NCBI GenBank assembly: GCA_024220505.1
Contig: JAKZZE010000005.1
Location: forward strand, 828,501-892,500
Length of the DNA stretch: 64,000 nt
From: Rhizopus arrhizus
Taxonomy: Eukaryota > Mucoromycota > Mucoromycetes > Mucorales > Rhizopodaceae
Reading direction: 5' to 3'
Under the pieces are notes generated by a model. That model worked only from the letters and a program-made list of their open reading frames with translations, was not told the DNA's origin and searched no databases. The position numbers and the translations under genes were made by a program. This document shows positions 15,083 through 43,084 of the stretch, one piece after another. The first letter of the stretch is position 1, and each line of letters starts with the position of its first letter.

Positions 15083-15101
15083 AAATAATCAGTAATAAAA
15101 C

Positions 15102-15134
<33 letters not shown>

Positions 15135-15336
15135 GATATGTGGTTATACTACTATTTGAATAGTAATAGATTGATTAAACTGTTGTTTATAAAATCTAAT
15201 GATGTCGAGTATGTTTAGTTGATAGTATTATTTTATATGCCCGTGTTTCTTTTCATCACAAAGGGGCGTGAATAGTACAAAAGAAGTAATTATCTTGGTG
15301 AAGAGTAGATAATGTCAGTGATAGTATATCAAAGAT

Positions 15337-15899
15337 TGTTGTAGAACAGTAACTGATTGTAGTTGACATTAATAAATATAAGTCTTAATACAAGATCGTA
15401 ACTAAAATAAAATACAAGTTTATTTAAATAAGATCGTACAACCAATTCCAAGTAAACACATTCTAAAAGAATATGTATTGTATTCATGATGATTCTTTGA
15501 TAAGAAGAAGCATCAAATAAAATGACAAGATCTTTTTCTATTGTCAAAAACCCAATTCAATATCAGGAATACTACTAATCCTTCGCGTAATTGAAATAAC
15601 GCGTAAAATAAGGTTATTCAAGTCAGTGAGGAATGTTGTAGAACAGTAACTGATCGTAGTAGACATTCATAAATATAAGTCTTAATACAAGATCATTATT
15701 AAATAAAATAAAAATATAAGTTTATTTAAATAAGATCATACAATCAATTCCAATTAAACATGTTCTTTTAGAATATGTTTTGTATTAATAAGAGTTCTTT
15801 GATAAGAAGAAGTATCAACTAAAATAACAAGATCCAATCCAATATCAGAAATATTGCTAATCTTTCATATAATTGAAATAACGCGTAAAATAACGTTAT
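15337..15899 (+). repeat. Diverged tandem repeat, ~297-bp unit (second unit interrupted by element A)
   Basis: Unit 1 is 15337-15633. Unit 2 begins at 15634 with the same TGTTGTAGAACAGTAACTGAT, runs to 15899 and resumes at 21858-21873 after element A. Both units end in AGTGAGGAA or close to it, and identity looks about 80-85%. The mirror copy in the right arm (42252-42830) is uninterrupted. The units could be old solo LTRs, but I cannot find convincing termini. Confidence 0.8.
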
Positions 15900-16314
15900 T
15901 GATGTATCCATCATTCATAACTCGATATGAAAACAGTATTAATAAGCTACATGTAAAATATATCCAATAGATAGGCTACAGGTTAATTCGGATAATCTTC
16001 ATTAAGGATAAGATGCTGCGTAATTGCACGGTTAAATTATATTAAATCCAGGAACTAAATCACAGTCAATCGCAGTCAATCATATACGAGTATTCTATGG
16101 ATAAATGCTTATGGTGACAAAGATAACAATGGAAGAACACGTAACCATTATCTATTTGTCATCAGTTATATCATACTCATTAATTATTAATCCATGACAT
16201 GAAATATTATCCGTGTATGAAAAGTATAAATAGAGTATCATTTTCTTATTAAATAAAACAATCTCTTTATCGAGTCTCGTCCTCTCTTGTTCCTTTCTAT
16301 TCTTGGATAAATCA
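15900..16314 (+). repeat. 5' LTR of element A
   Basis: 415 bp, TG...CA ends. It contains the TATA box of the element at 16225-16232. The first eight bases after the LTR are T; no TGG-type tRNA primer site is visible there. Confidence 0.95.
16225..16232 (+). promoter_or_regulatory. TATA box in element A LTR
   Basis: TATAAATA about 140 bp before the first ATG of the polyprotein and some 80 bp before the LTR end, as expected for the U3/R boundary. The same sequence recurs in the 3' LTR. Confidence 0.6.
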
Positions 16315-16365
16315 TTTTTTTTGACGAATTCTCTTTACTCTATTATTACTACGCTATTCTCAAAC

Positions 16366-19300
16366 ATGTCTATCAACTCTAATCTTTTGGCTTACAACGA
16401 AGAAACCCTTCTTTCTGAAAGTGACCCTGCTTTCATTGGTCCTAGACTTGAAAAGCCCTCCATGGTTAATGGGATCGAACTTCCTCTTACTGGATCTCCA
16501 AACTCTATTACAGAAGATATAGAGATGGAAGAAGTTGAACCCAGGGCTATGGCCTCTCCACTCGCTGGTGTCAAGGGCAGTGGCGCAGCACCACCTTCTC
16601 AGGTCTCGGGTAGTCGTAATTTGACGGCTACCGTCCAGACTTTGACGAAACAGGTAGAACAAATTGCTGCGGCTATCACGGGTCAAGAGCTTACAGGAAA
16701 GCAACTTGCTAACCTTTCCCGCGAATATACGACCAAGTCTACCATCTTGGCCTCCTTGTTGGACTTGCAAGCAAAAATGGCTAATAACTTGACTATACAA
16801 ACCAATGGCTCTGCCATTAACGGTTCTAACAGTCAACCTACAGTGGTTCCTCAAAACTTACCTTTGTTTCAGTACACTGGTAATGTAGAGAACTCAGCAT
16901 TGCCCGTCTTTAAAGACATTGCTGACTGTATCCGACGTTTTGAGGATATCCTCTTTGCGTACCGCTTGGATGTACAGGTGCATTGGCAGCGCCTCATCCC
17001 TTTCTCACTTACCCATACTCAACGTTCTTGGTATGATGAATTACGGGTAAAGAAGAATTTATCTTGGACCATATTCAAGGAACAATTAACCTTGAAATAT
17101 GGCATCGAATCCACTGAGGCCCAAGCCCACGCCTCAAGAGAGCTGTTAACCATCAGTATGCAGCCTGATGAGTCTGTGGAAAAATACACTGACCGCTTTT
17201 TGAAACTCAAGCGTGAAGCCACTCCCGTAGCTGATGATTTTTTGGCTATTTTGTTCGTGAACTCCCTCACTAGTAGCCTCCAAAATCATGTCAACATGGC
17301 CATCGTCAGTCTTGATCAGGAGGCAAGGAATGACATAAACCTCCTTTCTAGTATCGCAAGAAAGTTTCATACGAAACAACAGACCTTGCCCCATATGTCA
17401 ACTAAAAAATTCAATAACCAACCCTCTCAAGTCAACGGGTTGAACCCTCCCAGTGGTATTCATAAAAGAAACCACCGTACGGATGGAAGGACTTGTATCA
17501 TCCATGGAAAGTGCAACCACACAACAGATCGTTGTAAAAAGGCTCAGGAACTCGGAATTGCTGGCAATATGAACAAAGAGACATCTAGCAAGCGTTGCTT
17601 TAAATGCAACGCTCCTTTTACTAGGGAGCATTTAAATGTTTGCCCTAAAAGGAATCAACCTCTTTCTGCTGGTTCTGCCTCTTCCTCCTCCTCTACTGCA
17701 CCTACCATAACCAGGGCATTCCGCTCACTTCAGTTGACTGGCAGTGAAGATAAACCAATGGGTACAAAGGCTTCTAAATATAACCCTGCCAACCAACAAA
17801 GCCACGATGAAGAACAGGATCTTGACGATGAAGCCGTCAAGGACATCCACTACTACTCATCATTATGTAAGTTGCAACCGTTTAATACAAAACTTCACAG
17901 TTTTAATAACAAACGTACTGATTCCTTTTTTGTACCCATCACTATAGAAAATGTCCGTACTTGGGCTTTGGTTGATACTGGGTGTAATACTTCTACGATC
18001 TCTCCTGACCTAGCAAAAATTATAAACGTTAGAACTTTTCCTGTTTCAGGAAAATTACAATTAGCTAGTTTGAATACCTTGGTACCTAGAACTGCTATTA
18101 CAGATCAAATAAAAGTATTTTATAACGGAATCAATGTCTTACATGAATTTGAAATTTTTAAGTTTGATAAGGATATACCTATTTGTATTGGTACAGATCT
18201 TATGCCTAAGTTAAACATTAACTTGACAGGTTTAGCTGTTACGTGGGATAGTCCTAATATCTCTACAATACCTGATCCAATAGACCCTTCACCTATCAAA
18301 CCTAATAAGTCACCCGCTGGTACTCACCAACAGCGTGAACAACTTATGGACGCATTACAGCCATATTTGAGCGCCAATGCTAAGATCCCTAGCACGTCTG
18401 CATGTCCTCTACCTGAAGCGATAGTTCGCTTGGAAACTGAACCAGGTAAAACCACTTATAGACGGCAGTATCCTATTGCACTGTCAATCCAGCCTAAAGT
18501 ACAAGAACAGGTTGACAAATGGTTAGCAGATGGTGTAATTGAAATAGCCCCTCCTAATACTGCATTTAACTCTCCTTTGTTGACTGTACGTAAGAAGGAT
18601 GCTAATGGTAATTATAGTGACGATGTACGGGTGTGTATAGACCCCAGACATATCAATGCAATACTCATTAAAGATCGTACCGACCGCTTTCAATTACCAT
18701 TGATAGCTGAGTTGCATCAAAAAATGAGTGCTGCGACACTATTTACAGTACTTGACCTCAAACAAGCTTTTCATCGGTTACCTCTAGCTGATGAGCATAG
18801 AGCCCTTACAGCTTTTACATTTAACGGTCAACAATATCAATTTTGTAGAGCACCATTCGGTTTGACCCCTATACCAAATCACTTTCAACGTGTGCTAACT
18901 ACCCTCTTACATGACTTGCCATACGTTACATGTTTCATTGATGATTTAACTATCGGTACTGGACCCGATATTGAGGAACATATCAAATGCGTAACTACTG
19001 TCATCGAACGACTTACATCAGCTAAATTTATTCTTAACGTTGATAAATGTCACTTTATGCAAACTTCGGTAAACATCCTAGGCTTCACTATTAGTCACAA
19101 TAGTCTCTCATTGGATAGCAGAAAGGTTGCAAATGCTTTAGCATGGCCAATACCAAAAACTGGAAAAGATATACAACGCTTTCTAGGCCTCGCTAATTAT
19201 TTTCGAAGTCATCTCCCAAATTTCTCTACCATGACCGCACCGTTAGATAAACTACGTAACGAAGGTTCATTGGAACACATTTGGACTGACAAATATCTAC

Positions 19301-21231
19301 AGGCTTTTCGAAATATACAGACAGCCTTATCTAATGCTCCTGTTCTGTCTATACCTGACATGCGTCATGAATTACAGCTAGCTACAGATGCTAGCAACAC
19401 AGGAATTGGCGGTGTACTTTATCAAATTATTGACGATAAAACTCGCTATATTGGATTCGCAGCAAGAGCACTGTCGAAGTCAGAAATGAACTACTCGACA
19501 ACTAAACGAGAGCTGTTAGCCATCTGTTATCTTTTTGAAAGATTTCACAAGTGGTTGTATGGATCTCAATTCACGCTGTATACTGATCATAAAAGTTTGG
19601 TCTATCTTGGCACACAAAACATTCCTAATCCCATGATGCTGAATTGGTTCGAAACTATTTTCAACTATACATTCAAAGTAATCCATCGTCCAGGAATTGA
19701 AAATGTGTTGCCGGATTCACTTTCTCGTCTTTTTTCAGACGATACGGAAAAAAGACTGGGGGGAGATAATAATCCTCAGCAACTTTCCATAAAAAATAAA
19801 AATACAAAGTCACAGAGCAAACGTACTACAGACAACAGTACAAACATAAAACAAAGAGCTGTACAACTAGTAGACTACATGACACCACCAGAAGAGGAAC
19901 GTCATAACCTATTATTAAAGGCACATCTACTTGGACACTTTGGGGCTGATGCTATTGTAAAGACAATCCACAATGATAATTTGCACTGGATTAATATTAA
20001 AAAAGATGCATTGCAGCTAGTATCCAATTGTCCTGAATGTCAACAATTTAATATTGGCAAACACGGGTATCACCCTCCCCGTAGTATTCTACCAGATGGT
20101 CCTTTTGATCACGTCTGTATTGACCTCGGTACCCTGAACATTACATCAACAGAAGGACATAATTTCATTTTAGTCCTAGTTGATCTCTTCACAAGATTTA
20201 CAATTCTAAGACCATTAATGGATAAAACTGCAGTATCCATAGCTAATGAACTTAGAGATATCTTTTGCACTTTTGGTTGGCCCAAAAAGCTTAGTTCAGA
20301 TAACGGTACAGAATTCACTAATGAAATATTTAATTCATTAATGGAAACCTGTGGTATTGACCATAGACTTTCACTGCCTTATAACCCATTGGGTAATTCG
20401 ACTAACGAATCGTTTGTTGGAATAGCCAAACGAGCTCTTGTTAAAAGATTACAAGGCAAGAAAGACGAGTGGAATCTTTTCCTTCCTAGTATTCAATATG
20501 CTATGAATTGCAAATATTCTAGATTACATCATTCCAGACCATTTGTGCTTATGTATAATAGACAACCAAATGAATTTCAGGATTATTCCAATGCACAATC
20601 CTCAATACCTAACTCTAGTCAGCAGTATGCTAAAGCACTAGAAAATAAATTAGACAATATGAACAACATAGTAATCCCTGCTATACGTAACCGTATTATG
20701 ACTACTCAAAGAACTGACAACGAGTATTTTACAAAGAAGCACCGCATTGTAAATCAACAATTTCCTACTAATAGCGAAGTTATGATAAAAAATGTGAATA
20801 GAAATAGTAAAACTGACCCAAGGTACGAGGGCCCCTTTGTCGTACATGGAGTCACAAAAAATGGTAGCTACATTTTGACGGATAAAACAGGTACATTATT
20901 ATCGCGCGACGTACCTACCTCGCACATCAAACTCATCTCTACAGACAACGTTGTTAATAATCGCGCTGACCAACAACAGTACGATGTGCAGGCAATTATC
21001 CAACATAAAGGAAATAACACTAGTAATTATAAATACCTAGTAAGATGGAAAGGTTATCCTCCAGAATATGATACCTGGGAACCTGCCTCAAGTTTTGATG
21101 ACATGAGTATGATAGAACAGTACTGGGCAAGACGTAACGTCAATAATAACATTGGCAAACGTAAACGCTCATCTCATACCAATGTTCCAACCAAGACTAA
21201 TAATTTTAACAAACGAAACAAGACAAAGTAA
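16366..21231 (+). CDS. Gag-Pol polyprotein of chromovirus A
   Basis: Single frame of 1621 codons from the first ATG. Order: Gag (WYDELRVKKNLSWTIFK near 220-240); zinc knuckle CFKCN...HLNVC near 411; protease LVDTGCNTS (Asp ~537); reverse transcriptase with CIDPRH and the active site FIDD (~856-859) instead of the usual YLDD; RNase H ATDASNTGIGG; integrase with HHCC zinc finger (~1185-1224) and DDE at about 1253, 1312 and 1348. A chromodomain (about 1538-1590) ends the protein, with the aromatic-cage pattern YLVRWKGY...TWEP. Chromodomains direct chromovirus integration to marked chromatin. Gag and Pol are fused without frameshift. All key residues are present apart from the Tyr-to-Phe change. 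Confidence 0.97.
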   Translation: MSINSNLLAYNEETLLSESDPAFIGPRLEKPSMVNGIELPLTGSPNSITEDIEMEEVEPRAMASPLAGVKGSGAAPPSQVSGSRNLTATVQTLTKQVEQIAAAITGQELTGKQLANLSREYTTKSTILASLLDLQAKMANNLTIQTNGSAINGSNSQPTVVPQNLPLFQYTGNVENSALPVFKDIADCIRRFEDILFAYRLDVQVHWQRLIPFSLTHTQRSWYDELRVKKNLSWTIFKEQLTLKYGIESTEAQAHASRELLTISMQPDESVEKYTDRFLKLKREATPVADDFLAILFVNSLTSSLQNHVNMAIVSLDQEARNDINLLSSIARKFHTKQQTLPHMSTKKFNNQPSQVNGLNPPSGIHKRNHRTDGRTCIIHGKCNHTTDRCKKAQELGIAGNMNKETSSKRCFKCNAPFTREHLNVCPKRNQPLSAGSASSSSSTAPTITRAFRSLQLTGSEDKPMGTKASKYNPANQQSHDEEQDLDDEAVKDIHYYSSLCKLQPFNTKLHSFNNKRTDSFFVPITIENVRTWALVDTGCNTSTISPDLAKIINVRTFPVSGKLQLASLNTLVPRTAITDQIKVFYNGINVLHEFEIFKFDKDIPICIGTDLMPKLNINLTGLAVTWDSPNISTIPDPIDPSPIKPNKSPAGTHQQREQLMDALQPYLSANAKIPSTSACPLPEAIVRLETEPGKTTYRRQYPIALSIQPKVQEQVDKWLADGVIEIAPPNTAFNSPLLTVRKKDANGNYSDDVRVCIDPRHINAILIKDRTDRFQLPLIAELHQKMSAATLFTVLDLKQAFHRLPLADEHRALTAFTFNGQQYQFCRAPFGLTPIPNHFQRVLTTLLHDLPYVTCFIDDLTIGTGPDIEEHIKCVTTVIERLTSAKFILNVDKCHFMQTSVNILGFTISHNSLSLDSRKVANALAWPIPKTGKDIQRFLGLANYFRSHLPNFSTMTAPLDKLRNEGSLEHIWTDKYLQAFRNIQTALSNAPVLSIPDMRHELQLATDASNTGIGGVLYQIIDDKTRYIGFAARALSKSEMNYSTTKRELLAICYLFERFHKWLYGSQFTLYTDHKSLVYLGTQNIPNPMMLNWFETIFNYTFKVIHRPGIENVLPDSLSRLFSDDTEKRLGGDNNPQQLSIKNKNTKSQSKRTTDNSTNIKQRAVQLVDYMTPPEEERHNLLLKAHLLGHFGADAIVKTIHNDNLHWINIKKDALQLVSNCPECQQFNIGKHGYHPPRSILPDGPFDHVCIDLGTLNITSTEGHNFILVLVDLFTRFTILRPLMDKTAVSIANELRDIFCTFGWPKKLSSDNGTEFTNEIFNSLMETCGIDHRLSLPYNPLGNSTNESFVGIAKRALVKRLQGKKDEWNLFLPSIQYAMNCKYSRLHHSRPFVLMYNRQPNEFQDYSNAQSSIPNSSQQYAKALENKLDNMNNIVIPAIRNRIMTTQRTDNEYFTKKHRIVNQQFPTNSEVMIKNVNRNSKTDPRYEGPFVVHGVTKNGSYILTDKTGTLLSRDVPTSHIKLISTDNVVNNRADQQQYDVQAIIQHKGNNTSNYKYLVRWKGYPPEYDTWEPASSFDDMSMIEQYWARRNVNNNIGKRKRSSHTNVPTKTNNFNKRNKTK

Positions 21232-21425
21232 CGAACTGAATATGATCTTTTCCCATTACTTTTTTCCTCAACAGGTTTTTTGGGTTTTTATCGATTATAT
21301 ACCAGAAGAGCATACTCTCTCTTTCCTCTACACTTACGTCTTTAATATAAACAGCCTACGCAATCATATTGGATATGATCTCTGTACTCTTCGTTATTCA
21401 TGATGCTCATCGGTTGTTCCAACCT

Positions 21426-21434
21426 GGAAGGGGG
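21426..21434 (+). other. Polypurine tract of element A
   Basis: GGAAGGGGG, followed by CAA and then the 3' LTR at 21438. This is the expected primer for plus-strand DNA synthesis. Confidence 0.7.
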
Positions 21435-21437
21435 CAA

Positions 21438-21852
21438 TGATGTATCCATCATTCATAACTCGATATGAAAACAGTATTAATAAGCTACATGTAAAATATA
21501 TCCAATAGATAGGCTACAGGTTAATTCGGATAATCTTCATTAAGGATAAGATGCTGCGTAATTGCACGGTTAAATTATATTAAATCCAGGAACTAAATCA
21601 CAGTCAATCGCAGTCAATCATATACGAGTATTCTATGGATAAATGCTTATGGTGACAAAGATAACAATGGAAGAACACGTAACCATTATCTATTTGTCAT
21701 CAGTTATATCATACTCATTAATTATTAATCCATGACATGAAATATTATCCGTGTATGAAAAGTATAAATAGAGTATCATTTTCTTATTAAATAAAACAAT
21801 CTCTTTATCGAGTCTCGTCCTCTCTTGTTCCTTTCTATTCTTGGATAAATCA
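21438..21852 (+). repeat. 3' LTR of element A
   Basis: 415 bp, the same as the 5' LTR at every position I compared. It is followed by the GTTAT target duplication. Confidence 0.95.
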
Positions 21853-22270
21853 GTTATTCAAATCAGTGAGGAATTCCCAGAATAAAAGATAATCTATGAC
21901 AGACATACAAAAGAACAAATGAAAAGCTTTCATAACCATAATTACAGATGACAGTTGTAAAAGTAAGTAAATATTAGAAGAAGGCTTACAATAGAAGATA
22001 TCAAGCCCTTCATTCGATAAGATATAAATACCTGATTTCAATTAGATTTTTTTTTTTTTTTTTTTTTATACTTTAACTGAAATAAAAATCATTCCCAAGC
22101 AGTACACACACTGCTTCTTGATCTTTGTTTCTACGTTTTCTTTAATTGCCTTAACAATTATACAACAAAGATTTTTGAAAGATAGAAAGAGGTATTTAGA
22201 AACTATAAAAGGTTCAGAACAAAAAAATTCACATTTTGCTTTAACTATAGAGCAGACAACGCACAAAATA

Positions 22271-22303
22271 TGCGGACCGCACCTTCAAAATTCCGGACCG
22301 GAA
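22271..22303. promoter_or_regulatory. Twin 11/13-bp palindromes with CGG-A-CCG core
   Basis: TGCGGACCGCA (22271-22281) and TTCCGGACCGGAA (22291-22303) are each perfect palindromes around a central A, starting 20 bp apart in very AT-rich DNA. CGG/CCG half-sites are what Zn2Cys6 fungal regulators bind. The mirror copy in the right arm is at 41822-41854, and a related imperfect copy occurs at 34464-34486. They lie 60-100 bp upstream of the tRNA gene in the uninserted state. Confidence 0.5.
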
Positions 22304-22314
22304 ATTTAATTGGG

Positions 22315-22322
22315 ATATATAG
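22315..22322 (+). promoter_or_regulatory. TATA-like upstream element of tRNA-Arg, displaced
   Basis: ATATATAG. In the site before element B inserted it would end 26 bp before the tRNA. Upstream TATA elements at this distance are needed for tRNA transcription in some fungi, such as Schizosaccharomyces pombe. Element B now separates it from the gene by about 5.5 kb, in both arms. Confidence 0.4.
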
Positions 22323-22342
22323 TTTTTAAATGTACACAAAAA

Positions 22343-22755
22343 TGTCGTGCTTGAGGGAAGGCCAACCAATAGTAGTTTGTATAAGTTAATAAAAGAATTA
22401 TTTGAACTTGTAAAAGATAATGTTTATTTTCTTAAAATAATAACGAGTATTTATATGTTTTCCTAATGGTCTTATGACTTCCTAAAATAATCATATTGCT
22501 GCGGTTCACTGCTGCGGTTCATTGCTGCGGTCATTTGTTGTGATCACTTGCTGCGGTCGCTTGCTGCGGTTCATTGCTGCGGTCAAGTTGCCATGGTTAC
22601 TTGTACGACGGTCTTTGTACTTTGCCAATGGGTGCGTGATATTCTTTGAGCTATGGGCAAGACGCAACTTCAAAACATTTAATGACGCTTTCCTTTTTAA
22701 GGTCCCAGAAGGTCTTTGGCGTGGAGTTGGGACAAATCTACGTTTTGCTACGACA
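22343..22755 (-). repeat. 3' LTR of element B (left copy), codes the polyprotein C-terminus
   Basis: 413 bp. The Gag-Pol frame runs into it and stops inside at 22506, so the last ~82 residues are LTR-encoded. It contains a degenerate tandem of the unit TGCTGCGGTTCAT at about 22497-22585. Confidence 0.95.
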
Positions 22756-25700
22756 TCACTCCCCTCCAAGACTGTTGATCGTCTCTGATCAACTTGAACA
22801 GCGGTAGATGGAGAAGGAGTAATCTTGGGGTTAGGTTCAGGAAGCGTAGAAACACCATTTTGGGAACGCCAGACAGCACGAGAAACTGTAGGATTGTACC
22901 AAGGTGTTGCAACAGATTCAGCTTTGACTTCTTTTAATCGATCAACATGGACCCAAGACGGGTAAGGTTCACCTCCAATGGAGATCAGCTTGTATATATT
23001 CGTTGTGTCATTCTTGCCAGTTATAATGTAAGGACCCATCCAGTTATATTCCAAACCATATTTTTGTTCGTTTCTTAACAAAACATGATCACCTACTTCA
23101 AAATCCACTTTGGTGATTACTGCATCCCATTTAAGTTTGTCCGCCTCCGATACAGCACGCATTCTTTGTTCAGCAGCAGCTCTTTCTTGTCCCAGACCTT
23201 CCAATTCTCTAGCAGTATGTTCAGCAATTGTACGAGGGTCATTTGCTATAGACCCCTCCAAGTAAGGTTTTAAATCATCACCTGGTATAACAGGTTCACG
23301 TCCATAAACTAAATAGAATGGGGAATAACCAGCAGAGCGATGTTTACGTATACGGGCTGCAAAGAGAGCAGTGTCTACAAATTGATCCCAGATATGTATC
23401 GCACCATGTACATACTTCCGCAACATTGTTTTCAATATACCATTTAGCCTTTCGCATTTACCATTTGATCGAGGGTGGAAAGCAGAAGTCATACGGTGAG
23501 TGGTATTAAGACGTTCACAATAGCTTTTAACTAATTTTGATAAAAAGTTGGCACCACGATCTGTTACAATTTCAGCAGGACAGCCAAATTTCATTACAAT
23601 TTCTTCATATATAAAGTCGGCTACAGCTTCAGCAGTAGCTTCAGGAAGAGCACGGGCAATGGGCCAGTTTGTTGTATAGTCTACGGCAGTTAGCAGCCAT
23701 CTGTTTCCTTTCTTTGTAGTGGGGAGTTCTCCTATAAAGTCAAGATGCCAGCGTGAAAAAGCCGGTGGAATATCTAACGGTACCATTGGGGCATGATGTT
23801 TATTCTTGTTTGGGCTAGCAGCTAGTTGACATTGCGGGCAATATGATAACCATTTTTGAATATCGCCTGACATATCTGGCCACCACCAACGCTTCTTTAA
23901 TAGATCATACACTGTAGTTTTACCGAGGTGACCAAATCCAGCATGGAATTTTTCCACAAGATCAGCACGGCGAGAGAAAGGGCAAAACTGCACTAGCACG
24001 AACTTCTTTCCATTTTTGATTTTTCGGTATACTTTGTTATTACGAACCACAAATTTTTCCTTGTTTTGTTCCATCCGTTTTTTCATAGCTTCTGATATAT
24101 CACTTGGAATATTTATACGATAATATTCTGGCCAGTCAGATTCTTCCTTGTGTTCAACTTGATACAAATATTTGGGTTCCAATTCTTCCATATCGGCAGT
24201 ACAGTTAGGACCATCACGTCGACTCAAAGCGTCAGGCACACCATTTTCCTTCCCAGGTTTGTATTTTATCTTTGGATCGTAGGCTTCAATTTCGGATAAC
24301 CACCGAACTAAACGAGGGGTAGGTTTCTTTTGAGATCGTAAGTACTGTAATGGATTGTGATCGGTAAACACCGTATAATCAGAGCCGTCTATAAAACATC
24401 TCCAGGTACGTAATGCATGCAATATTCCAATTAATTCTCGTTCTTGTGGCGGGTAGTTTCTTTCACTAGCAGATAGCTTTTTGGATTCGTATGCAATAGG
24501 ATGTAACAAATTATTATCGTCCTTCTGTAATAGCACTGCACCAACACCAAAATCAGAAGCATCAGTCTCAATGATAAATGGCTTAGTCAGATCGGGCGAT
24601 TGAAGCACAGGTGCTGTAGACATGAGATCCTTGAGTTTCTTAAATGCAAGTTCACATTCACTAGTCCAATGTATGGAACGCTTCTTGGCTCCAGTTCCTT
24701 TTGTCAAGTCCGTCAAGGGGGTTGCAACAGTTGAGAATCCAGATATGAACCGACGATAGTGTGAGCACAAGCCAATAAACTGACGAACTTCTTGCACGTT
24801 CGTAGGACGAGGCCATTCTTTAATTGCATTTATTTTTGAAGATGAAGGCAGCACCCCTTTTTCAGATACACGATAACCGAGAAATTCAACTTCTTTCTTG
24901 TTAAAATCACACTTTTTGGGGTTGACATATAATTTGTTTTCACGGAGTCTTTGTAGTACCATTCTTAAATGTTTTTCATGTTCTTCTTTGGTCTTGCTGA
25001 AAATCAAAATGTCATCAAGATATACCAATACAAATTTGTCCACATAATCACGAAGTACGTCGTTCATCATCTTTTGAAAAGTGGGAGGACTATTAGTTAA
25101 ACCAAACGGTAAGACCAAAAATTCATAAGAACCATATCGGGTATTGAATGCTGTTTTAGGAATATCTTCCTTGCGAATACGAACTTGATGATACCCACTT
25201 TTAAGATCGATACTTGAAAAATATTTGGCACCTCCTAAACGTTCTAAGCACTCATCAATGCGAGGTAAAGGAGTGCTGATTCTTTTGGTCAGGGAGTTGA
25301 TTGCACGATAATCAATACACATACGTAGTGAGCCATCCTTCTTGCGTACAAACAACACTGGAGCGCCCCAAGGAGAGTAACTAGGTCGGATGAAGCCAGC
25401 ACTGAGTAATTCTTTTAGTTGTCTTTGTAATTCATCCAATTCTCGTGGACTCATTTTGAACGGGGGCCTGTTAACAGGCTTAGCTTCTCCAGTATCAATA
25501 ACATGTTCAACCGTTCTCATAGGGGGTAGACCAGGCAGGGATCCTTCACAAAAGACGTCCTTGAATTCCTTGAGAAGAGTTGAGTTTACTTTTTCTACAG
25601 CTTTGTTGTCGTTGAAGTGAACCAAGTATAATTCTTCAACTTGGTTTTTCTTGGTACTTCGTTGTAACTGCCTTTTGGACATTACATATGCAAAATCTCT

Positions 25701-27197: not shown

Positions 27198-27400
27198 AGT
27201 CCGATAAGATGTTCCAATATAAGTCTTGTAAAATTAGAGAGACAATAACCAAGTAGTAAAATAACCCAAGAATAATTCTTGTAAAATTCCAATAGCAAAC
27301 CAAATAAAAAGAGTAAACCAAGAAATAACCTTCTTGTAAATATCGCAAATAGAATCACCAAATAGATTCAATAATTAGGTATAACAACCAGATAAAATAA

Positions 27401-27417
27401 CCAAACAGATGCTACCA
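27401..27417 (-). other. Primer-binding site of element B
   Basis: Two bases past the 5' LTR, the minus strand reads TGGTAGCATCTGTTTGG. TGGTAGC is complementary to a tRNA 3' end ...GCTACCA, the end of initiator Met tRNA in fungi, the usual Ty1/Ty3 primer. The remaining bases were not checked against a tRNA of this organism. Confidence 0.65.
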
Positions 27418-27419
27418 GT

Positions 27420-27832: not shown

Positions 27833-27843
27833 AAAAATGTGAA

Positions 27844-27917: not shown

Positions 27918-27921
27918 CTTC

Positions 27922-27927
27922 TTTTTT
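27922..27927 (+). terminator. RNA polymerase III terminator of tRNA-Arg
   Basis: Six T starting five bases past the tRNA discriminator base. The mirror is at 36198-36203 for the right copy. Confidence 0.8.
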
Positions 27928-28150: not shown

Positions 28151-28184
<34 letters not shown>

Positions 28185-29990: not shown

Positions 29991-30059
29991 TTTTTATGCT
30001 TATAAAAAAATAATAATGCAAGAGGGACATATAGTATTTAAAATGCATTGAATTGCCTG

Positions 30060-30860: not shown

Positions 30861-31086
30861 TAGAATACTATATTTTTCAAATTTTTAGGAAAAATAAAAA
30901 ATAATTTGGAGAAAATTGATTAAGTAATTTAGAAAGAAAGTGATAAGATTCTGATAATAATTGGTAGAAGAAGCATGAGATAGTTTGAGATAGAACAAGC
31001 AGTGAAAATAAAAGAGAGACACCAAAAGATATAAATATATAAGATGAATGTTAGTAAAAGATCATCACAAAAAGTATTACACACAA

Positions 31087-31110
31087 CTCACCCCCTAAAT
31101 AAGGGATGAG
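31087..31110 (-). ncRNA. Candidate Fanzor guide-RNA scaffold hairpin
   Basis: Starting 7 bp after the decayed Fanzor stop, the minus strand reads CTCATCCC, a loop TTATTTAG, then GGGGTGAG: an 8-bp stem with one G-U pair, in otherwise AT-rich DNA. TnpB and Fanzor guide RNAs arise from the 3' end of the nuclease gene and the adjacent element end, so position and structure fit. No second copy in the window allows a covariation test. Confidence 0.3.
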
Positions 31111-31116
31111 AGCCCG

Positions 31117-34100: not shown

Positions 34101-34117
34101 GAAGCATTAGCTGTCAT
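31117..34117 (-). pseudogene. Decayed Fanzor (eukaryotic TnpB-like RNA-guided nuclease)
   Basis: Fragments in several frames. A possible first exon (34117-33969) begins MTANASGFQTIQGK. A Lys/Arg-rich stretch (33920 on) could be a nuclear signal. Helical segments follow at 33468-33130 and about 32930-32700. RuvC-I is GIDSGITDTFTAVD at about 32041-32000. The longest open piece, 31761-31117, carries AYVSGSF, the zinc-ribbon start TEAFTNQTCKQCKT, and RuvC-III as WNCDVMTVKNI, where active proteins have NRD..AAKN. The second zinc knuckle has lost a Cys (YNSC). Stops, frame changes and a 23-A run (32464-32486) break it. In active proteins this nuclease cuts DNA guided by an RNA from its own 3' end. 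Confidence 0.75.
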
Positions 34118-34682
34118 GTATGTATGGCTTTAGTCTTGTTTCATTGACTGATAACAATTTCATATGGCAAGTTTTGTTTCCCTTTCGATCTTTTGAAAGA
34201 TAAACTTTTCTGAGCTGGAGGATTCAAATTAGGCTTCTTTCTCTGCTTCATCTGTATTTATTACTTTAAGTAGTCTTACTCTTGAATACAAAAAAATAAA
34301 AAAGAAGATACTTGTTACTCGAAAAAATTGATAAGGAAGAAGAGTGAGAAAAAGAAAAAACTCATATTTGATTATATTATCTTTCAATTTATCACACGAA
34401 TTTATGAAGAGGATCAACAACAGGTTCTTTATTAAAAAATATAAAACATGTGTTAAAAACGACATTTTGAAGGCGGCCGCATTTTGACTCCTCAAACTAT
34501 AGAGGCTTGTTCGCAAGCTGCTCTAATTGGTTGTCAGAGATGGATAAGACATCCAATTTCATTCTTTAGCTGTTGCCTTTCTTTTGTAAAAAAAAGTCTA
34601 TAGTTCTCAAAATAGTTATCACATTTTCTAGATTAACAAATATAATTTTTCTCATTTATTTGGAAAAATCTATAATAAAGTG
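34118..34682. other. Right end of spacer, non-coding
   Basis: AT-rich DNA between the Fanzor relic and the right arm. A further N-terminal fragment (MKQRKKPNLNPPAQKS on the minus strand near 34247) may belong to the relic. The GCGGCCGC-centred motif at 34464-34486 resembles the arm palindromes. Nothing else is seen. Confidence 0.4.
34464..34486 (+). repeat. Diverged copy of the arm palindrome motif
   Basis: ATTTTGAAGGCGGCCGCAT plus TTTG aligns to right-arm 41834-41861 (ATTTTGAAGGTGCGGTCCGC then ATATTTTG), with a few short gaps; CTATAG follows a little further on in both. It may be a terminal motif of the element that carried the Fanzor gene, or a dispersed repeat. Confidence 0.4.
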
Positions 34683-35941
34683 ACCTCCACTCTTTCGTAG
34701 AAAACGTCTCTTGGATTGGTTACTACAGAGCTCATATTGATGTCTATGGCATGTCTTTCTTTTCTTATTTGCTTTTACTTTTTTTGTCCTTGATATCAAA
34801 ATATGTTTTTTTTTTTTAAATCCTCTTTCATTCCTTTTTGATCTGACTTGGGTGATTAAGGCGTATTAAAGACATTGCACGCTCATTTAAGTCTTTTTTA
34901 ATATAAATAAAAAAAAATTAATAATAATAGTGGCAATTACACTAAACTTGACAGCTTTTATGTAAAGATGTCTGAATATTATACGTGAGTAATTCAATGT
35001 CTGTCATTATTTAAGTTCTCTAGGCATACAAAAGTAAACAATATGTAATTTTTGTGGAATCAAGTCCCGTTCAGCTTTAACAGCCAATTCAAGTTAGCAC
35101 AATAATAATATCAGTATTTGATGCTTTTATATACTTTTGAGAATTTGATATAGAACCAAAAGTTTGAATAGTGTTCAGTTCTAAAAGTAGTAATAAATTA
35201 AGCATAAATTCGTTTGTAATAAGGGCACTGAATCATGTTTAATGGATTAAGTTGTTTAGAGCGACATAATGTAAAGGATAAAAAAAAAAAAAAAAAAAAA
35301 AAAAGGGATTAGAATAAAGTGTATGTGCTTCAAGGGACTTGACTTATTTTTTATATTATGTAAAATAAAAGAAAAATAAAACAGATTTGCTTTGAATGAT
35401 ATTTATTCAAAAATAATCAAAGAGTAAAGTAAGTGCTTCAAAAGCAATTCAGTAAAGCTTTCGATTGCATAAAGCTTTTATAATTTTTGTGAATGTTTGT
35501 GTACTTTAAATTCAATATATATTGTTACAAAATAGTACCTTGTAGGTTTATGAGTTAGATAGAGATGAAGTTTGCTTGTAAAGCCAGATTTTAAGGTTAA
35601 AATTGCCTTGTGAGTTGATGTTTAATATAGAACCTAGGTAGAAGCTTGATATAAGTAGTGACCATCAGATCTTATATATAAGATAAATACAATGTTTCTT
35701 GATAAAAGGTTATAAAAGAAGAATAAAATAAGAGACCAGGAACTTTTTATAAGTAAAGTATAAAAATATAAAAAAAACTTGACTAATGATTTTATTCTTT
35801 GACTGAATGGTTGATATAAATATAATATATAATAATTTTTTCTTTTTCTTTTTGACATTTTTCATTTTTTTTGACTTCTTTCCTTTTCTTGATATTTTTC
35901 ACTTTTTTTGGACTTCTTTGTTACAATATTATTATTATCAT

Positions 35942-35975
<34 letters not shown>

Positions 35976-36207
35976 ACTTTCATTTCTGACAGTGCTCGTT
36001 TATCAACTTAGCCAAAAGTCGTGTAAATGCTATTTTTTTTTCTTTTCCGTTAAAAGGCTCTTCAATTTTAAATCATGCACAAGATTTATATGCTCATTTG
36101 GGAGTCAACAATACCTTCTTTGTTGGATAGTTCAAAAAAAAAAAAAAAAAAAAAGAAAAAGAAAGACTCGCCAAAACGTTTATCCGAAAATCTACGGAAA
36201 AAAGAAG

Positions 36208-36281
36208 TACCCAATGCGGGGGTCGAACCCGCAATCTTCCGCTTAGAAGGCGGACGCCGTATCCAATTTGGCCAATCGGGC
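36208..36281 (-). tRNA. tRNA-Arg (anticodon TCT), right copy
   Basis: Reverse-complement copy of the gene at 27844-27917 with the same 74 bases, including the A box, B box and T-run terminator (36198-36203). Element B ends 11 bp upstream of it, as in the left arm. Confidence 0.93.
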
Positions 36282-36292
36282 TTCACATTTTT

Positions 36293-36705
36293 TGTCGTAG
36301 CAAAACGTAGATTTGTCCCAACTCCACGCCAAAGACCTTCTGGGACCTTAAAAAGGAAAGCGTCATTAAATGTTTTGAAGTTGCGTCTTGCCCATAGCTC
36401 AAAGAATATCACGCACCCATTGGCAAAGTACAAAGACCGTCGTACAAGTAACCATGGCAACTTGACCGCAGCAATGAACCGCAGCAAGCGACCGCAGCAA
36501 GTGATCACAACAAATGACCGCAGCAATGAACCGCAGCAGTGAACCGCAGCAATATGATTATTTTAGGAAGTCATAAGACCATTAGGAAAACATATAAATA
36601 CTCGTTATTATTTTAAGAAAATAAACATTATCTTTTACAAGTTCAAATAATTCTTTTATTAACTTATACAAACTACTATTGGTTGGCCTTCCCTCAAGCA
36701 CGACA
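36293..36705 (+). repeat. 5' LTR of element B (right copy)
   Basis: 413 bp, mirror of 27420-27832. Starts 11 bp from the tRNA-Arg 5' end. Confidence 0.95.
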
Positions 36706-36927
36706 ACTGGTAGCATCTGTTTGGTTATTTTATCTGGTTGTTATACCTAATTATTGAATCTATTTGGTGATTCTATTTGCGATATTTACAAGAAGGTTAT
36801 TTCTTGGTTTACTCTTTTTATTTGGTTTGCTATTGGAATTTTACAAGAATTATTCTTGGGTTATTTTACTACTTGGTTATTGTCTCTCTAATTTTACAAG
36901 ACTTATATTGGAACATCTTATCGGACT

Positions 36928-39900
36928 ATGTCTGGTGTTATTGAAGAAGATATTATTATGGGAAGCCCTGGTGCTTCTGTTGCTGGAAAAGGCGTTTATT
37001 TGGACAAGGACATGCTTAATGATTTACTACGTACTCTTACTGCGAAAAGTGCTCCATCTTTTCGCGTCCGTGAACCTGATTTATATAGAGGTGAAAGATC
37101 CTCGTTAATTGTTACAAGCTGGATTAGCTCGCTGGAAACTTATTTTGAACTGGTACCTATGCAAGAGAAAGAAAGAATACTGTACGCTGTTACTTTGCTT
37201 CGCGGTGATGCCCTTATATGGTGGAACCAATACAAGACATCTCGCATCACTCCTGAAGACTGGCCCACATTTAAAAATATATTGGAAAATGAATTTAAAC
37301 CTGTCAATGCCACTCAAGCTGCTCGTGACAAGATGGCTGCCCTAACTCAACGCACTAATGTTACTTCTTACATTAATGAATTCCGCAGTCTACAATTACA
37401 AATTAAGGATATGTCGTCAGGTGATGCTTTGGATCGTTTCGTTCGTGGACTAAAGTCACAATTACGGGTCATGGTTAGATCACGTTTTCCCCATTCATTA
37501 GAAAGTGCTGAATCCATTGCTCTTGCCATTGAAGCTGCTATGAACGATGGTGAGTATGCTATGTCGTATGCCACCAACACTCCTGCTGCCAATAATCCTT
37601 TTACGCGATCTCAGTCAACTATCCATGCTTTACCTAATGATGATCCTATGGACTTGGATTCAATCCAACATGCTATCAATGTATTATCTAAAGCTTATCG
37701 CTTCAACAGAAAAGAGAACAATTTGGGAAGTCGTAGCACAAGTCGTCAACAAGTTCGTTGTTATGGTTGTCAAGGTGTCGGTCACATGAAGAATGAATGT
37801 CCTACTTGGAGAAAGTCTGGAAGAAGGTTTAGGCAAGGGTTTCAATCAAACAATGGAAGAAAACAACAATCTTTAAACAATGTGGAAACTGTAAATCAAG
37901 ATAACAAGTCTGTAGCAAAGTTTGAAGAAGATGAATACAATGACGATGATGATAAACAACTTCTTGCTCAAGACGGTGCTCATATTTTAAACTTCAATAA
38001 TAAAGTCACTGATTTGCCCTTGTACGAAATGTGTTTATATAATGGTAAAAATGGTAATGGCAAGATCAAAGCCCTACTTGACACCGGTGCTGGATCAAAT
38101 TATATTGCCCCTCGCTTGGTCAATAATTTTATGAAGATAATTCCTCTTCGTACTGCTAGCGAAGTAGAAACCGCTGGAGGTCATAAGATGACTATCAACA
38201 AAAAAGTAGAGTTCATACTTCGAGTTGGAAAACTATGCTATCGAACACAAGCCTATATCTTTGATATGAAGTTCGATCTTATTTTGGGACAACAATGGTT
38301 AAAGCAAGCTAAACCTACTCCTGATTGGAAGACTAACTCTTGGGTATTATCGAATTGCAAAGGATTAAAAGAAACCATTGTGCCCTGTGTCAATCCTACC
38401 GTCGCCATGCCATTCGCGCCTGTAAGAGATTTTGCATATGTAATGTCCAAAAGGCAGTTACAACGAAGTACCAAGAAAAACCAAGTTGAAGAATTATACT
38501 TGGTTCACTTCAACGACAACAAAGCTGTAGAAAAAGTAAACTCAACTCTTCTCAAGGAATTCAAGGACGTCTTTTGTGAAGGATCCCTGCCTGGTCTACC
38601 CCCTATGAGAACGGTTGAACATGTTATTGATACTGGAGAAGCTAAGCCTGTTAACAGGCCCCCGTTCAAAATGAGTCCACGAGAATTGGATGAATTACAA
38701 AGACAACTAAAAGAATTACTCAGTGCTGGCTTCATCCGACCTAGTTACTCTCCTTGGGGCGCTCCAGTGTTGTTTGTACGCAAGAAGGATGGCTCACTAC
38801 GTATGTGTATTGATTATCGTGCAATCAACTCCCTGACCAAAAGAATCAGCACTCCTTTACCTCGCATTGATGAGTGCTTAGAACGTTTAGGAGGTGCCAA
38901 ATATTTTTCAAGTATCGATCTTAAAAGTGGGTATCATCAAGTTCGTATTCGCAAGGAAGATATTCCTAAAACAGCATTCAATACCCGATATGGTTCTTAT
39001 GAATTTTTGGTCTTACCGTTTGGTTTAACTAATAGTCCTCCCACTTTTCAAAAGATGATGAACGACGTACTTCGTGATTATGTGGACAAATTTGTATTGG
39101 TATATCTTGATGACATTTTGATTTTCAGCAAGACCAAAGAAGAACATGAAAAACATTTAAGAATGGTACTACAAAGACTCCGTGAAAACAAATTATATGT
39201 CAACCCCAAAAAGTGTGATTTTAACAAGAAAGAAGTTGAATTTCTCGGTTATCGTGTATCTGAAAAAGGGGTGCTGCCTTCATCTTCAAAAATAAATGCA
39301 ATTAAAGAATGGCCTCGTCCTACGAACGTGCAAGAAGTTCGTCAGTTTATTGGCTTGTGCTCACACTATCGTCGGTTCATATCTGGATTCTCAACTGTTG
39401 CAACCCCCTTGACGGACTTGACAAAAGGAACTGGAGCCAAGAAGCGTTCCATACATTGGACTAGTGAATGTGAACTTGCATTTAAGAAACTCAAGGATCT
39501 CATGTCTACAGCACCTGTGCTTCAATCGCCCGATCTGACTAAGCCATTTATCATTGAGACTGATGCTTCTGATTTTGGTGTTGGTGCAGTGCTATTACAG
39601 AAGGACGATAATAATTTGTTACATCCTATTGCATACGAATCCAAAAAGCTATCTGCTAGTGAAAGAAACTACCCGCCACAAGAACGAGAATTAATTGGAA
39701 TATTGCATGCATTACGTACCTGGAGATGTTTTATAGACGGCTCTGATTATACGGTGTTTACCGATCACAATCCATTACAGTACTTACGATCTCAAAAGAA
39801 ACCTACCCCTCGTTTAGTTCGGTGGTTATCCGAAATTGAAGCCTACGATCCAAAGATAAAATACAAACCTGGGAAGGAAAATGGTGTGCCTGACGCTTTG

Positions 39901-41619
39901 AGTCGACGTGATGGTCCTAACTGTACTGCCGATATGGAAGAATTGGAACCCAAATATTTGTATCAAGTTGAACACAAGGAAGAATCTGACTGGCCAGAAT
40001 ATTATCGTATAAATATTCCAAGTGATATATCAGAAGCTATGAAAAAACGGATGGAACAAAACAAGGAAAAATTTGTGGTTCGTAATAACAAAGTATACCG
40101 AAAAATCAAAAATGGAAAGAAGTTCGTGCTAGTGCAGTTTTGCCCTTTCTCTCGCCGTGCTGATCTTGTGGAAAAATTCCATGCTGGATTTGGTCACCTC
40201 GGTAAAACTACAGTGTATGATCTATTAAAGAAGCGTTGGTGGTGGCCAGATATGTCAGGCGATATTCAAAAATGGTTATCATATTGCCCGCAATGTCAAC
40301 TAGCTGCTAGCCCAAACAAGAATAAACATCATGCCCCAATGGTACCGTTAGATATTCCACCGGCTTTTTCACGCTGGCATCTTGACTTTATAGGAGAACT
40401 CCCCACTACAAAGAAAGGAAACAGATGGCTGCTAACTGCCGTAGACTATACAACAAACTGGCCCATTGCCCGTGCTCTTCCTGAAGCTACTGCTGAAGCT
40501 GTAGCCGACTTTATATATGAAGAAATTGTAATGAAATTTGGCTGTCCTGCTGAAATTGTAACAGATCGTGGTGCCAACTTTTTATCAAAATTAGTTAAAA
40601 GCTATTGTGAACGTCTTAATACCACTCACCGTATGACTTCTGCTTTCCACCCTCGATCAAATGGTAAATGCGAAAGGCTAAATGGTATATTGAAAACAAT
40701 GTTGCGGAAGTATGTACATGGTGCGATACATATCTGGGATCAATTTGTAGACACTGCTCTCTTTGCAGCCCGTATACGTAAACATCGCTCTGCTGGTTAT
40801 TCCCCATTCTATTTAGTTTATGGACGTGAACCTGTTATACCAGGTGATGATTTAAAACCTTACTTGGAGGGGTCTATAGCAAATGACCCTCGTACAATTG
40901 CTGAACATACTGCTAGAGAATTGGAAGGTCTGGGACAAGAAAGAGCTGCTGCTGAACAAAGAATGCGTGCTGTATCGGAGGCGGACAAACTTAAATGGGA
41001 TGCAGTAATCACCAAAGTGGATTTTGAAGTAGGTGATCATGTTTTGTTAAGAAACGAACAAAAATATGGTTTGGAATATAACTGGATGGGTCCTTACATT
41101 ATAACTGGCAAGAATGACACAACGAATATATACAAGCTGATCTCCATTGGAGGTGAACCTTACCCGTCTTGGGTCCATGTTGATCGATTAAAAGAAGTCA
41201 AAGCTGAATCTGTTGCAACACCTTGGTACAATCCTACAGTTTCTCGTGCTGTCTGGCGTTCCCAAAATGGTGTTTCTACGCTTCCTGAACCTAACCCCAA
41301 GATTACTCCTTCTCCATCTACCGCTGTTCAAGTTGATCAGAGACGATCAACAGTCTTGGAGGGGAGTGATGTCGTAGCAAAACGTAGATTTGTCCCAACT
41401 CCACGCCAAAGACCTTCTGGGACCTTAAAAAGGAAAGCGTCATTAAATGTTTTGAAGTTGCGTCTTGCCCATAGCTCAAAGAATATCACGCACCCATTGG
41501 CAAAGTACAAAGACCGTCGTACAAGTAACCATGGCAACTTGACCGCAGCAATGAACCGCAGCAAGCGACCGCAGCAAGTGATCACAACAAATGACCGCAG
41601 CAATGAACCGCAGCAGTGA
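36928..41619 (+). CDS. Gag-Pol polyprotein of element B (right copy)
   Basis: 1563 residues with the same domain order and the same sequence as the left-arm copy: Gag, CCHC knuckle, DTG protease, YLDD reverse transcriptase, RNase H, HHCC/DDE integrase, and a basic tail encoded in the 3' LTR. Equal coding capacity in both arms means either that duplication was recent or that gene conversion keeps the arms alike. Confidence 0.97.
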   Translation: MSGVIEEDIIMGSPGASVAGKGVYLDKDMLNDLLRTLTAKSAPSFRVREPDLYRGERSSLIVTSWISSLETYFELVPMQEKERILYAVTLLRGDALIWWNQYKTSRITPEDWPTFKNILENEFKPVNATQAARDKMAALTQRTNVTSYINEFRSLQLQIKDMSSGDALDRFVRGLKSQLRVMVRSRFPHSLESAESIALAIEAAMNDGEYAMSYATNTPAANNPFTRSQSTIHALPNDDPMDLDSIQHAINVLSKAYRFNRKENNLGSRSTSRQQVRCYGCQGVGHMKNECPTWRKSGRRFRQGFQSNNGRKQQSLNNVETVNQDNKSVAKFEEDEYNDDDDKQLLAQDGAHILNFNNKVTDLPLYEMCLYNGKNGNGKIKALLDTGAGSNYIAPRLVNNFMKIIPLRTASEVETAGGHKMTINKKVEFILRVGKLCYRTQAYIFDMKFDLILGQQWLKQAKPTPDWKTNSWVLSNCKGLKETIVPCVNPTVAMPFAPVRDFAYVMSKRQLQRSTKKNQVEELYLVHFNDNKAVEKVNSTLLKEFKDVFCEGSLPGLPPMRTVEHVIDTGEAKPVNRPPFKMSPRELDELQRQLKELLSAGFIRPSYSPWGAPVLFVRKKDGSLRMCIDYRAINSLTKRISTPLPRIDECLERLGGAKYFSSIDLKSGYHQVRIRKEDIPKTAFNTRYGSYEFLVLPFGLTNSPPTFQKMMNDVLRDYVDKFVLVYLDDILIFSKTKEEHEKHLRMVLQRLRENKLYVNPKKCDFNKKEVEFLGYRVSEKGVLPSSSKINAIKEWPRPTNVQEVRQFIGLCSHYRRFISGFSTVATPLTDLTKGTGAKKRSIHWTSECELAFKKLKDLMSTAPVLQSPDLTKPFIIETDASDFGVGAVLLQKDDNNLLHPIAYESKKLSASERNYPPQERELIGILHALRTWRCFIDGSDYTVFTDHNPLQYLRSQKKPTPRLVRWLSEIEAYDPKIKYKPGKENGVPDALSRRDGPNCTADMEELEPKYLYQVEHKEESDWPEYYRINIPSDISEAMKKRMEQNKEKFVVRNNKVYRKIKNGKKFVLVQFCPFSRRADLVEKFHAGFGHLGKTTVYDLLKKRWWWPDMSGDIQKWLSYCPQCQLAASPNKNKHHAPMVPLDIPPAFSRWHLDFIGELPTTKKGNRWLLTAVDYTTNWPIARALPEATAEAVADFIYEEIVMKFGCPAEIVTDRGANFLSKLVKSYCERLNTTHRMTSAFHPRSNGKCERLNGILKTMLRKYVHGAIHIWDQFVDTALFAARIRKHRSAGYSPFYLVYGREPVIPGDDLKPYLEGSIANDPRTIAEHTARELEGLGQERAAAEQRMRAVSEADKLKWDAVITKVDFEVGDHVLLRNEQKYGLEYNWMGPYIITGKNDTTNIYKLISIGGEPYPSWVHVDRLKEVKAESVATPWYNPTVSRAVWRSQNGVSTLPEPNPKITPSPSTAVQVDQRRSTVLEGSDVVAKRRFVPTPRQRPSGTLKRKASLNVLKLRLAHSSKNITHPLAKYKDRRTSNHGNLTAAMNRSKRPQQVITTNDRSNEPQQ

Positions 41620-41782
41620 ACCGCAGCAATATGATTATTTTAGGAAGTCATAAGACCATTAGGAAAACATATAAATACTCGTTATTATTTTAAGAAAATA
41701 AACATTATCTTTTACAAGTTCAAATAATTCTTTTATTAACTTATACAAACTACTATTGGTTGGCCTTCCCTCAAGCACGACA
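41370..41782 (+). repeat. 3' LTR of element B (right copy)
   Basis: 413 bp; carries the stop codon and last ~82 codons of the polyprotein (to 41619) and the GCTGCGGT-type degenerate tandem in reverse complement. Confidence 0.95.
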
Positions 41783-42251
41783 TTTTTGTGTACATTTAAA
41801 AACTATATATCCCAATTAAATTTCCGGTCCGGAATTTTGAAGGTGCGGTCCGCATATTTTGTGCGTTGTCTGCTCTATAGTTAAAGCAAAATGTGAATTT
41901 TTTTGTTCTGAACCTTTTATAGTTTCTAAATACCTCTTTCTATCTTTCAAAAATCTTTGTTGTATAATTGTTAAGGCAATTAAAGAAAACGTAGAAACAA
42001 AGATCAAGAAGCAGTGTGTGTACTGCTTGGGAATGATTTTTATTTCAGTTAAAGTATAAAAAAAAAAAAAAAAAAAAATCTAATTGAAATCAGGTATTTA
42101 TATCTTATCGAATGAAGGGCTTGATATCTTCTATTGTAAGCCTTCTTCTAATATTTACTTACTTTTACAACTGTCATCTGTAATTATGGTTATGAAAGCT
42201 TTTCATTTGTTCTTTTGTATGTCTGTCATAGATTATCTTTTATTCTGGGAA
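41783..42251. other. Right-arm segment beyond element B
   Basis: Mirror of 21858-22342: target duplication, TATA-like element, the twin palindromes (41822-41834 and 41844-41854) and a T/A run. No gene. Confidence 0.6.
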
Positions 42252-42830
42252 TTCCTCACTGATTTGAATAACGTTATTTTACGCGTTATTTCAATTATAT
42301 GAAAGATTAGCAATATTTCTGATATTGGATTGGATCTTGTTATTTTAGTTGATACTTCTTCTTATCAAAGAACTCTTATTAATACAAAACATATTCTAAA
42401 AGAACATGTTTAATTGGAATTGATTGTATGATCTTATTTAAATAAACTTATATTTTTATTTTATTTAATAATGATCTTGTATTAAGACTTATATTTATGA
42501 ATGTCTACTACGATCAGTTACTGTTCTACAACATTCCTCACTGACTTGAATAACCTTATTTTACGCGTTATTTCAATTACGCGAAGGATTAGTAGTATTC
42601 CTGATATTGAATTGGGTTTTTGACAATAGAAAAAGATCTTGTCATTTTATTTGATGCTTCTTCTTATCAAAGAATCATCATGAATACAATACATATTCTT
42701 TTAGAATGTGTTTACTTGGAATTGGTTGTACGATCTTATTTAAATAAACTTGTATTTTATTTTAGTTACGATCTTGTATTAAGACTTATATTTATTAATG
42801 TCAACTACAATCAGTTACTGTTCTACAACA
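42252..42830 (-). repeat. Tandem ~297-bp repeat, uninterrupted copy
   Basis: Two units (42252-42533 and 42534-42830), reverse complement of the left-arm pair. It holds the empty target site of element A (GTTAT complement at 42268-42272) and so serves as the pre-insertion reference. Confidence 0.8.
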
Positions 42831-43032
42831 ATCTTTGATATACTATCACTGACATTATCTACTCTTCACCAAGATAATTACTTCTTTTGTACTATTCACG
42901 CCCCTTTGTGATGAAAAGAAACACGGGCATATAAAATAATACTATCAACTAAACATACTCGACATCATTAGATTTTATAAACAACAGTTTAATCAATCTA
43001 TTACTATTCAAATAGTAGTATAACCACATATC

Positions 43033-43065
<33 letters not shown>

Positions 43066-43084
43066 GTTTTATTACTGATTATTT

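Follow-up and report, generated by a model that had tools for sequence, protein, structure and literature searches.

An assembly of the Rhizopus arrhizus genome (50.26 Mb, 41 contigs) contains, within a stretch of 64,000 nucleotides (nt) at C37:828501-892500 (hereafter the window), two long arms that face each other in inverted orientation. Each arm holds a transfer RNA (tRNA) gene for arginine with the anticodon TCT, tRNA-Arg(TCT), and a copy of the same long terminal repeat (LTR) retrotransposon, element B. A second LTR retrotransposon, element A, is present in the left arm, and the spacer between the arms is made up of relics of dispersed repeats (Table 1). With element A removed together with one of its two target-duplication copies, each arm is 8,402 nt long, and the arm-to-arm alignment of 8,403 columns contains no mismatches and two one-base gaps, both of which are in homopolymers (a T at left position 27971 and an A near 28254/35871). 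The original prediction of two 8.4-kb arms with a 5.2-kb spacer, the same LTR element and tRNA gene in both arms, and differences of homopolymer length only is thus borne out, and element B (5,490 nt) is identical between the arms. Its coordinates and its two pairing rules, by which paired positions add up to 64125 or, outside the element A insertion, to 58167, hold for blocks I1 to I3, and BLAST agrees. A near-exact inverted match of 8.4 kb would be far out of the reach of chance, and the finding of no substitutions at 8,402 positions places the divergence of the arms below about 3.6e-4 (95% upper bound, rule of three). The structure is probably a genuine inverted segmental duplication with a spacer, of recent date, and would have arisen by break repair.

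Table 1. Features of the inverted duplication in the window and of related loci. Positions refer to the window unless a contig is given.
Feature	Position	Strand	Remarks
Left arm, overall	15083-29442 less element A	+	Pairing rule, BLAST
Left arm, outer part	15083-15899	+	Pairing rule, BLAST
Left arm, inner part	21853-29442	+	Pairing rule, BLAST
Spacer	29443-34682	none	5,240 nt; relics of dispersed repeats TE1, TE2, and TE3
Right arm	34683-43084	-	Derived copy (inner end)
Paired block I1	21853-27991 / 36134-42272	inverted	Pairing rule, BLAST
Paired block I2	28254-29442 / 34683-35871	inverted	Pairing rule, BLAST
Paired block I3	15083-15900 / 42267-43084	inverted	Pairing rule, BLAST
Element A, Ty3/gypsy LTR retrotransposon with chromodomain	15900-21852	+	5,953 nt, left arm only
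Intact empty site of element A	42268-42272	-	GTTAT once, right arm
Element B, left copy, Ty3-like LTR retrotransposon	22343-27832	-	413-nt LTRs, target duplication AAAAA
Element B, right copy	36293-41782	+	Identical to left copy
tRNA-Arg(TCT), left copy	27844-27918	+	75 nt, points at spacer
tRNA-Arg(TCT), right copy	36207-36281	-	75 nt, points at spacer
Repeat family TE1	29199-29970	+	Passes unbroken across left arm-spacer junction 29442/29443
Repeat family TE2	29977-30854	+	Paralogues L047, L053, L054
TE3, decayed element	30866-34677	-	Fanzor/TnpB-type domain relic; right end by eye, within a few bp
Inner junction, derived	34682/34683	none	Abrupt TE1 start, about 5 bp beyond TE3 end
Right outer edge	43084/43085	none	About 0.9 kb from 3' end of arginase-like gene
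Arginase-like gene	43987-44970	-	Pfam domain; beyond right arm
Element B LTR start with intact tRNA	Window (C37)		tRNA-Arg
Element B LTR start with intact tRNA	C23:851805		tRNA-Met
Element B LTR start with tRNA-like fragment	C22:93505		Read by eye
C13 structure (loci L068-L074)	C13:861422-877901		Inverted duplication around tRNA-Arg(TCT)
C13 arms, first block	C13:861422-862634 / 876689-877901	inverted	1,213 nt, 100%
C13 arms, next block	C13:862629-863158 / 875610-876133	inverted	530 nt, 98.3%, 3 mismatches

The arm sequence flanking the tRNA gene is complete in the two arms only (among the best 40 of 547 candidates), as is the outer arm sequence with its dispersed repeat set aside (among the best 40 of 390 candidates). 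The outer part of the left arm includes an old tandem pair of approximately 300 nt at 15334-15834, and a repeat of approximately 267 nt at 15634-15900 is found with 97-99% identity at about 40 scored places in the genome. Beyond the arms, a second copy was found neither for the left flank (14583-15082, among the best 40 of 390 candidates) nor for the right flank (43085-44000, among the best 40 of 372 candidates), in line with a spaced inverted segmental duplication, in which highly alike reversed arms have unique outer flanks. The two different flanks and the asymmetric 5.2-kb spacer argue against an assembly artefact, whether from repeats that caused a mis-join or from a palindromic, folded read; a folded read would yield neither a spacer nor a second flank. 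On the other hand, the near-zero divergence and the restriction of the differences outside element A to homopolymer lengths would suit an artefact, and two true copies from elsewhere could have been mis-joined.

The direction of copying is evident at the inner junctions. Among 20 fetched loci, 8 hold a TE1 match that reaches the junction (L045, L047-L052, and L057), and on the left side all 8 continue unbroken from the arm into the spacer. The right arm is matched separately by six of these eight (L047-L051 and L057), and none of these separate matches extends spacerwards past 34683. TE1 crosses the left junction unbroken and stops at 34683, which indicates that the left junction is ancestral and the right junction is new; the right arm is the derived copy, a claim limited to its inner end. 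The copies of TE2 and TE3 that were inspected by eye show no continuation into sequence past 43085.

The domain relic in TE3 corresponds to a Cas12f1-like TNB domain (PF07282) at 31117-31797 and was detected with E = 1.3e-4 and 22.5 bits, which is below the Pfam cut-off of 26.3. Fanzor1 proteins are described in elements of Rhizopus, Phycomyces, and Mucor (PMC3627910), which would be in keeping with a Mucorales-like host. A copy of TE3 at 95% lies about 80 kb off on the same contig (C37:943181-946964). The family occurs on at least 18 contigs and is decayed, with most copies below 80% identity and the domain relic in the copy of the window.

The insertion of element A bears both on a possible artefact and on the order of events. 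Its two 415-nt LTRs are identical to each other, and its 5-bp target duplication, GTTAT, is located at 15895-15899 and 21853-21857. The GTTAT pair in the left arm, as against the single GTTAT opposite, shows at the level of the sequence that element A entered after the duplication. The family itself is young, and its LTR is matched at 100% (rounded) at the best 40 of 330 candidate places. A proper target duplication facing a clean empty site in the other arm would not be expected of an artefact, nor would the truncation of TE1 on one side at the inner edge, and we consider an artefact quite unlikely.

The target duplications of element B occur in both arms, and on this ground element B was evidently present before the duplication. 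An identical copy of its LTR at C23:863429-863841 shows that element B is young. These observations also bear on a further explanation, namely, an old palindrome kept identical through arm-to-arm gene conversion. In Y-chromosome palindromes, the arms are kept alike through conversion. The identical 8.4-kb arms are long enough for efficient conversion, and patchy conversion could give the pattern on C13, where arms with 100% identity over 1,213 nt continue at 98.3% over 530 nt. However, element A is in one arm and has been neither spread nor removed, and a recent origin suffices for an arm that is identical up to its exact ends and carries a young element B. An old, converted palindrome thus seems unlikely, if less so than an artefact. 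Among the options of the original prediction, a very recent origin is the best supported, an assembly artefact is disfavoured, and gene conversion may contribute to the likeness of the arms, which would mainly reflect a young event.

For the recent inverted duplication, the following order of events is proposed. Element B entered 11 bp upstream of tRNA-Arg(TCT), where its 5' end is now found. A break would then have occurred near 34682, beside the end of the Fanzor-like relic TE3, and in its repair approximately 8.4 kb of the neighbouring left arm would have been copied in reverse and joined to the right flank. Element A entered the left arm last. The 5.2-kb spacer is expected to be invertible through crossing-over of the two arms. 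The TE1 paralogues show the direction of copying at the inner end, and we infer break repair as the mechanism; in yeast, inverted duplications can be triggered by double-strand breaks (abstract of PMC10622511). Transposition of the arm as a unit was rejected, as no target duplication around the right arm was seen by eye. There is no evident function beyond the doubling of the tRNA-Arg(TCT) gene and element B.

Several points weigh against this interpretation. The TE1 loci were picked via the spacer part, by which copies holding the arm part alone would be missed. The outer junction is not polarised, and neither flank has a paralogue among the scored candidates; the outer flanks would trade places in any subsequent crossover of the arms, which is why derivedness is claimed for the inner end only. 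The nearness of the inferred break to the end of TE3 could be chance. On the assumption that the right arm was inserted, its two joints look blunt by eye, with neither microhomology nor a target duplication, so that microhomology-driven template switching is not favoured.

The proposed duplication is similar to the break-induced inverted duplications of yeast in that neighbouring DNA is copied inverted (PMC10622511 and PMC11724301), and inverted repeats beside breaks steer repair (PMC6103520). According to the abstracts, the inverted insertions are mostly 5-34 bp (PMC11724301), and the inverted amplification known as origin-dependent inverted-repeat amplification (ODIRA) starts from an inverted triplication (PMC10766186), whereas the window contains two 8.4-kb copies, a 5.2-kb spacer, and blunt-looking joints. 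The long intra-arm inverted repeats of Candida albicans are likewise long inverted repeats on one fungal chromosome arm; they are described as flanking regions amplified under drug selection and as seeding copy-number change (PMC7371428), whereas the window has one duplicated tRNA/retrotransposon segment and no known amplification. With an order of events that is readable at base resolution, the locus offers a clean natural example of large inverted repeats arising.

A few-kb core between near-identical inverted arms is also the form of the regional centromeres of Candida tropicalis, in which cores of 2-5 kb are flanked by inverted repeats of 2-5 kb that are shared between chromosomes (PMC4741521), and a centromere of this or the fission-yeast type would fit the 5.2-kb core, the 8.4-kb inverted arms, and the tRNA genes in the arms. 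In the window, however, the core consists of transposon relics, with matches on 21 of the 41 contigs as dispersed repeat families only, and the arm pieces are not common to other contigs, which 27833-29442, 15083-15900, and 42700-43084 match as dispersed repeats only (best-scored candidates). In addition, the 3' end of a coding gene is located 0.9 kb away from the arm, and a similar structure with unrelated arms surrounds the same tRNA on C13. A centromere is very improbable. An inversion switch of gene expression was rejected, the spacer being without an intact gene in the nine stop-to-stop frames of at least 50 amino acids (aa) that were scanned; the broken TNB relic is the only Pfam match below E = 0.03 among them.

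Exact copies of the 75-nt tRNA gene are found at only two places outside the window, C13:862429 (+) and C13:876820 (-) (all six candidates scored), and these form an inward-facing pair like that of the window. The next-best matches, on C35 and C6, are at 79% and have the anticodon CCT by position. The C13 pair is surrounded by an inverted duplication of its own, whose right arm contains an additional LTR-like segment of approximately 555 nt flanked by a 4-6 nt repeat ending CTAT. Its inner edge cuts an LTR-like segment of approximately 994 nt, which the left side has in full and the right side in truncated form, and another copy of the latter segment is located in the spacer together with older direct repeats at 69-77%; these segments were classed as LTR-like by eye on the basis of their TG...CA ends. 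Apart from the tRNA and dispersed repeats, no match was found between the C13 arms and the window arms, which points to two independent events. The C13 locus repeats the same logic, i.e., a one-sided edge cut and a one-sided LTR-like insertion, and supports the reading of the window as a recent inverted duplication. A spaced inverted segmental duplication is in itself of a known kind, and what is new is its presence at both tRNA-Arg(TCT) loci; the titles and abstract openings of the literature covered contain no description of a tRNA isoacceptor whose loci both carry inverted duplications.

A T-arm pattern had 111 hits in the genome, and the 100 listed were examined for 30-nt strings that recur identically on the opposite strand at a distance of no more than 30 kb. 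Three such pairs occur among these 100 of 111 hits, on C37, C13 (both tRNA-Arg(TCT)), and C5, and one direct identical pair is located on C23. The second structure on C13 and the third inverted pair on C5 weaken the description of such palindromes as rare, half of the original characterization of them as unstable and rare. The C5 pair is not a tRNA. It belongs to a structure at C5:391628-396851 (L075 and L076) that has inverted ends of at least 553 nt with 99.8% identity, measures 5.2 kb end to end, contains no tRNA, and may be a DNA transposon whose termini are long inverted repeats.

The recurrence raises the possibility that inverted duplication is favoured at tRNA-Arg(TCT) loci, through dosage selection or tRNA-linked breakage. 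All four exact copies of the gene form two inverted pairs in unrelated surroundings, and the sole other identical inverted pair within 30 kb among the T-arm hits examined, that on C5, is not a tRNA. After the palindromes were collapsed and the two C5 rows were dropped, 96 loci were left, and the chance that a second tRNA palindrome falls on the sole other TCT locus is 1/95. In yeast, experimental evolution altered tRNA genes to meet demand (abstract of PMC3868979). The events, however, are only two and were noticed post hoc, and two loci drawn at random belong to one 30-nt class in 7.5% of cases. Two further tRNA patterns, with 72 and 32 hits, gave two more opposite-strand pairs 24-26 kb apart, at C19:319693/345313 and C10:43336/67208, which are paired by position only and point outward as judged by eye. 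Moreover, AGA is not dominant among the arginine codons of the window, where it accounts for 50 of 260 in a small sample of 10 open reading frame stretches, one of which (439-1521) has no Pfam match. The recurrence could be explained by chance, tRNA-dosage selection, or tRNA-linked breakage, and a favoured process at these loci is doubtful, although it is less so than an old palindrome. Slightly more doubtful is the fuller proposal that all detected tRNA-Arg(TCT) genes (four genes at two loci) lie in independently formed, young, inward-facing inverted duplications caused by selection for more tRNA-Arg(UCU) or by a repair pathway that makes inverted copies from breaks near this tRNA gene. Should the recurrence at the two loci be more than chance, tRNA gene dosage would here have changed in nature via inverted duplication.

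Inverted pairing as a general rule for the tRNAs of this genome was rejected on the 100 of 111 T-arm hits and on the Rfam rows read by eye. In the Rfam search, tRNA-Arg(TCT) was absent among the best 63 of 2,878 candidates. The 100 T-arm hits also include a tRNA-like class whose anticodon position reads TCA, with 19 identical copies and near variants, which is possibly a tRNA-derived short interspersed nuclear element or an unusual tRNA.

The position of element B is reminiscent of that of Ty3, which integrates just upstream of the start sites of RNA polymerase III genes with a 5-bp duplication (PMC8632968). Element B likewise combines the Ty3/gypsy domain set with a target duplication of 5 bp, and its insertion point is 11 bp upstream of a tRNA gene. 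No Pfam Chromo match was found in element B at E 0.001; the chromodomain of Ty3 itself was detected through its structure (PMC8632968). The LTR start of element B was found at 8 insertion loci (11 places), and at 2 of the 8 it is directed at an intact tRNA gene at a distance of 9-11 bp. No tRNA was found by ARAGORN or Rfam within a few hundred adjacent bases at the five loci that are not listed in Table 1. The difference from Ty3 is that element B is next to an intact tRNA at only two of eight loci, and at a third next to a tRNA-like fragment; Ty3-like targeting of tRNA genes by element B is possible.

Elsewhere in the window, which is low in guanine-plus-cytosine content, Pfam domains of the LETM1, arginase, GAS2, PPR, and F-box types were detected, and this gene content and base composition suit a fungus. 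The GAS2 domain is near the end of an open frame of 2,342 aa at 47872-54900 (-), whose product is presumably akin to a spectrin-repeat cytoskeletal linker.

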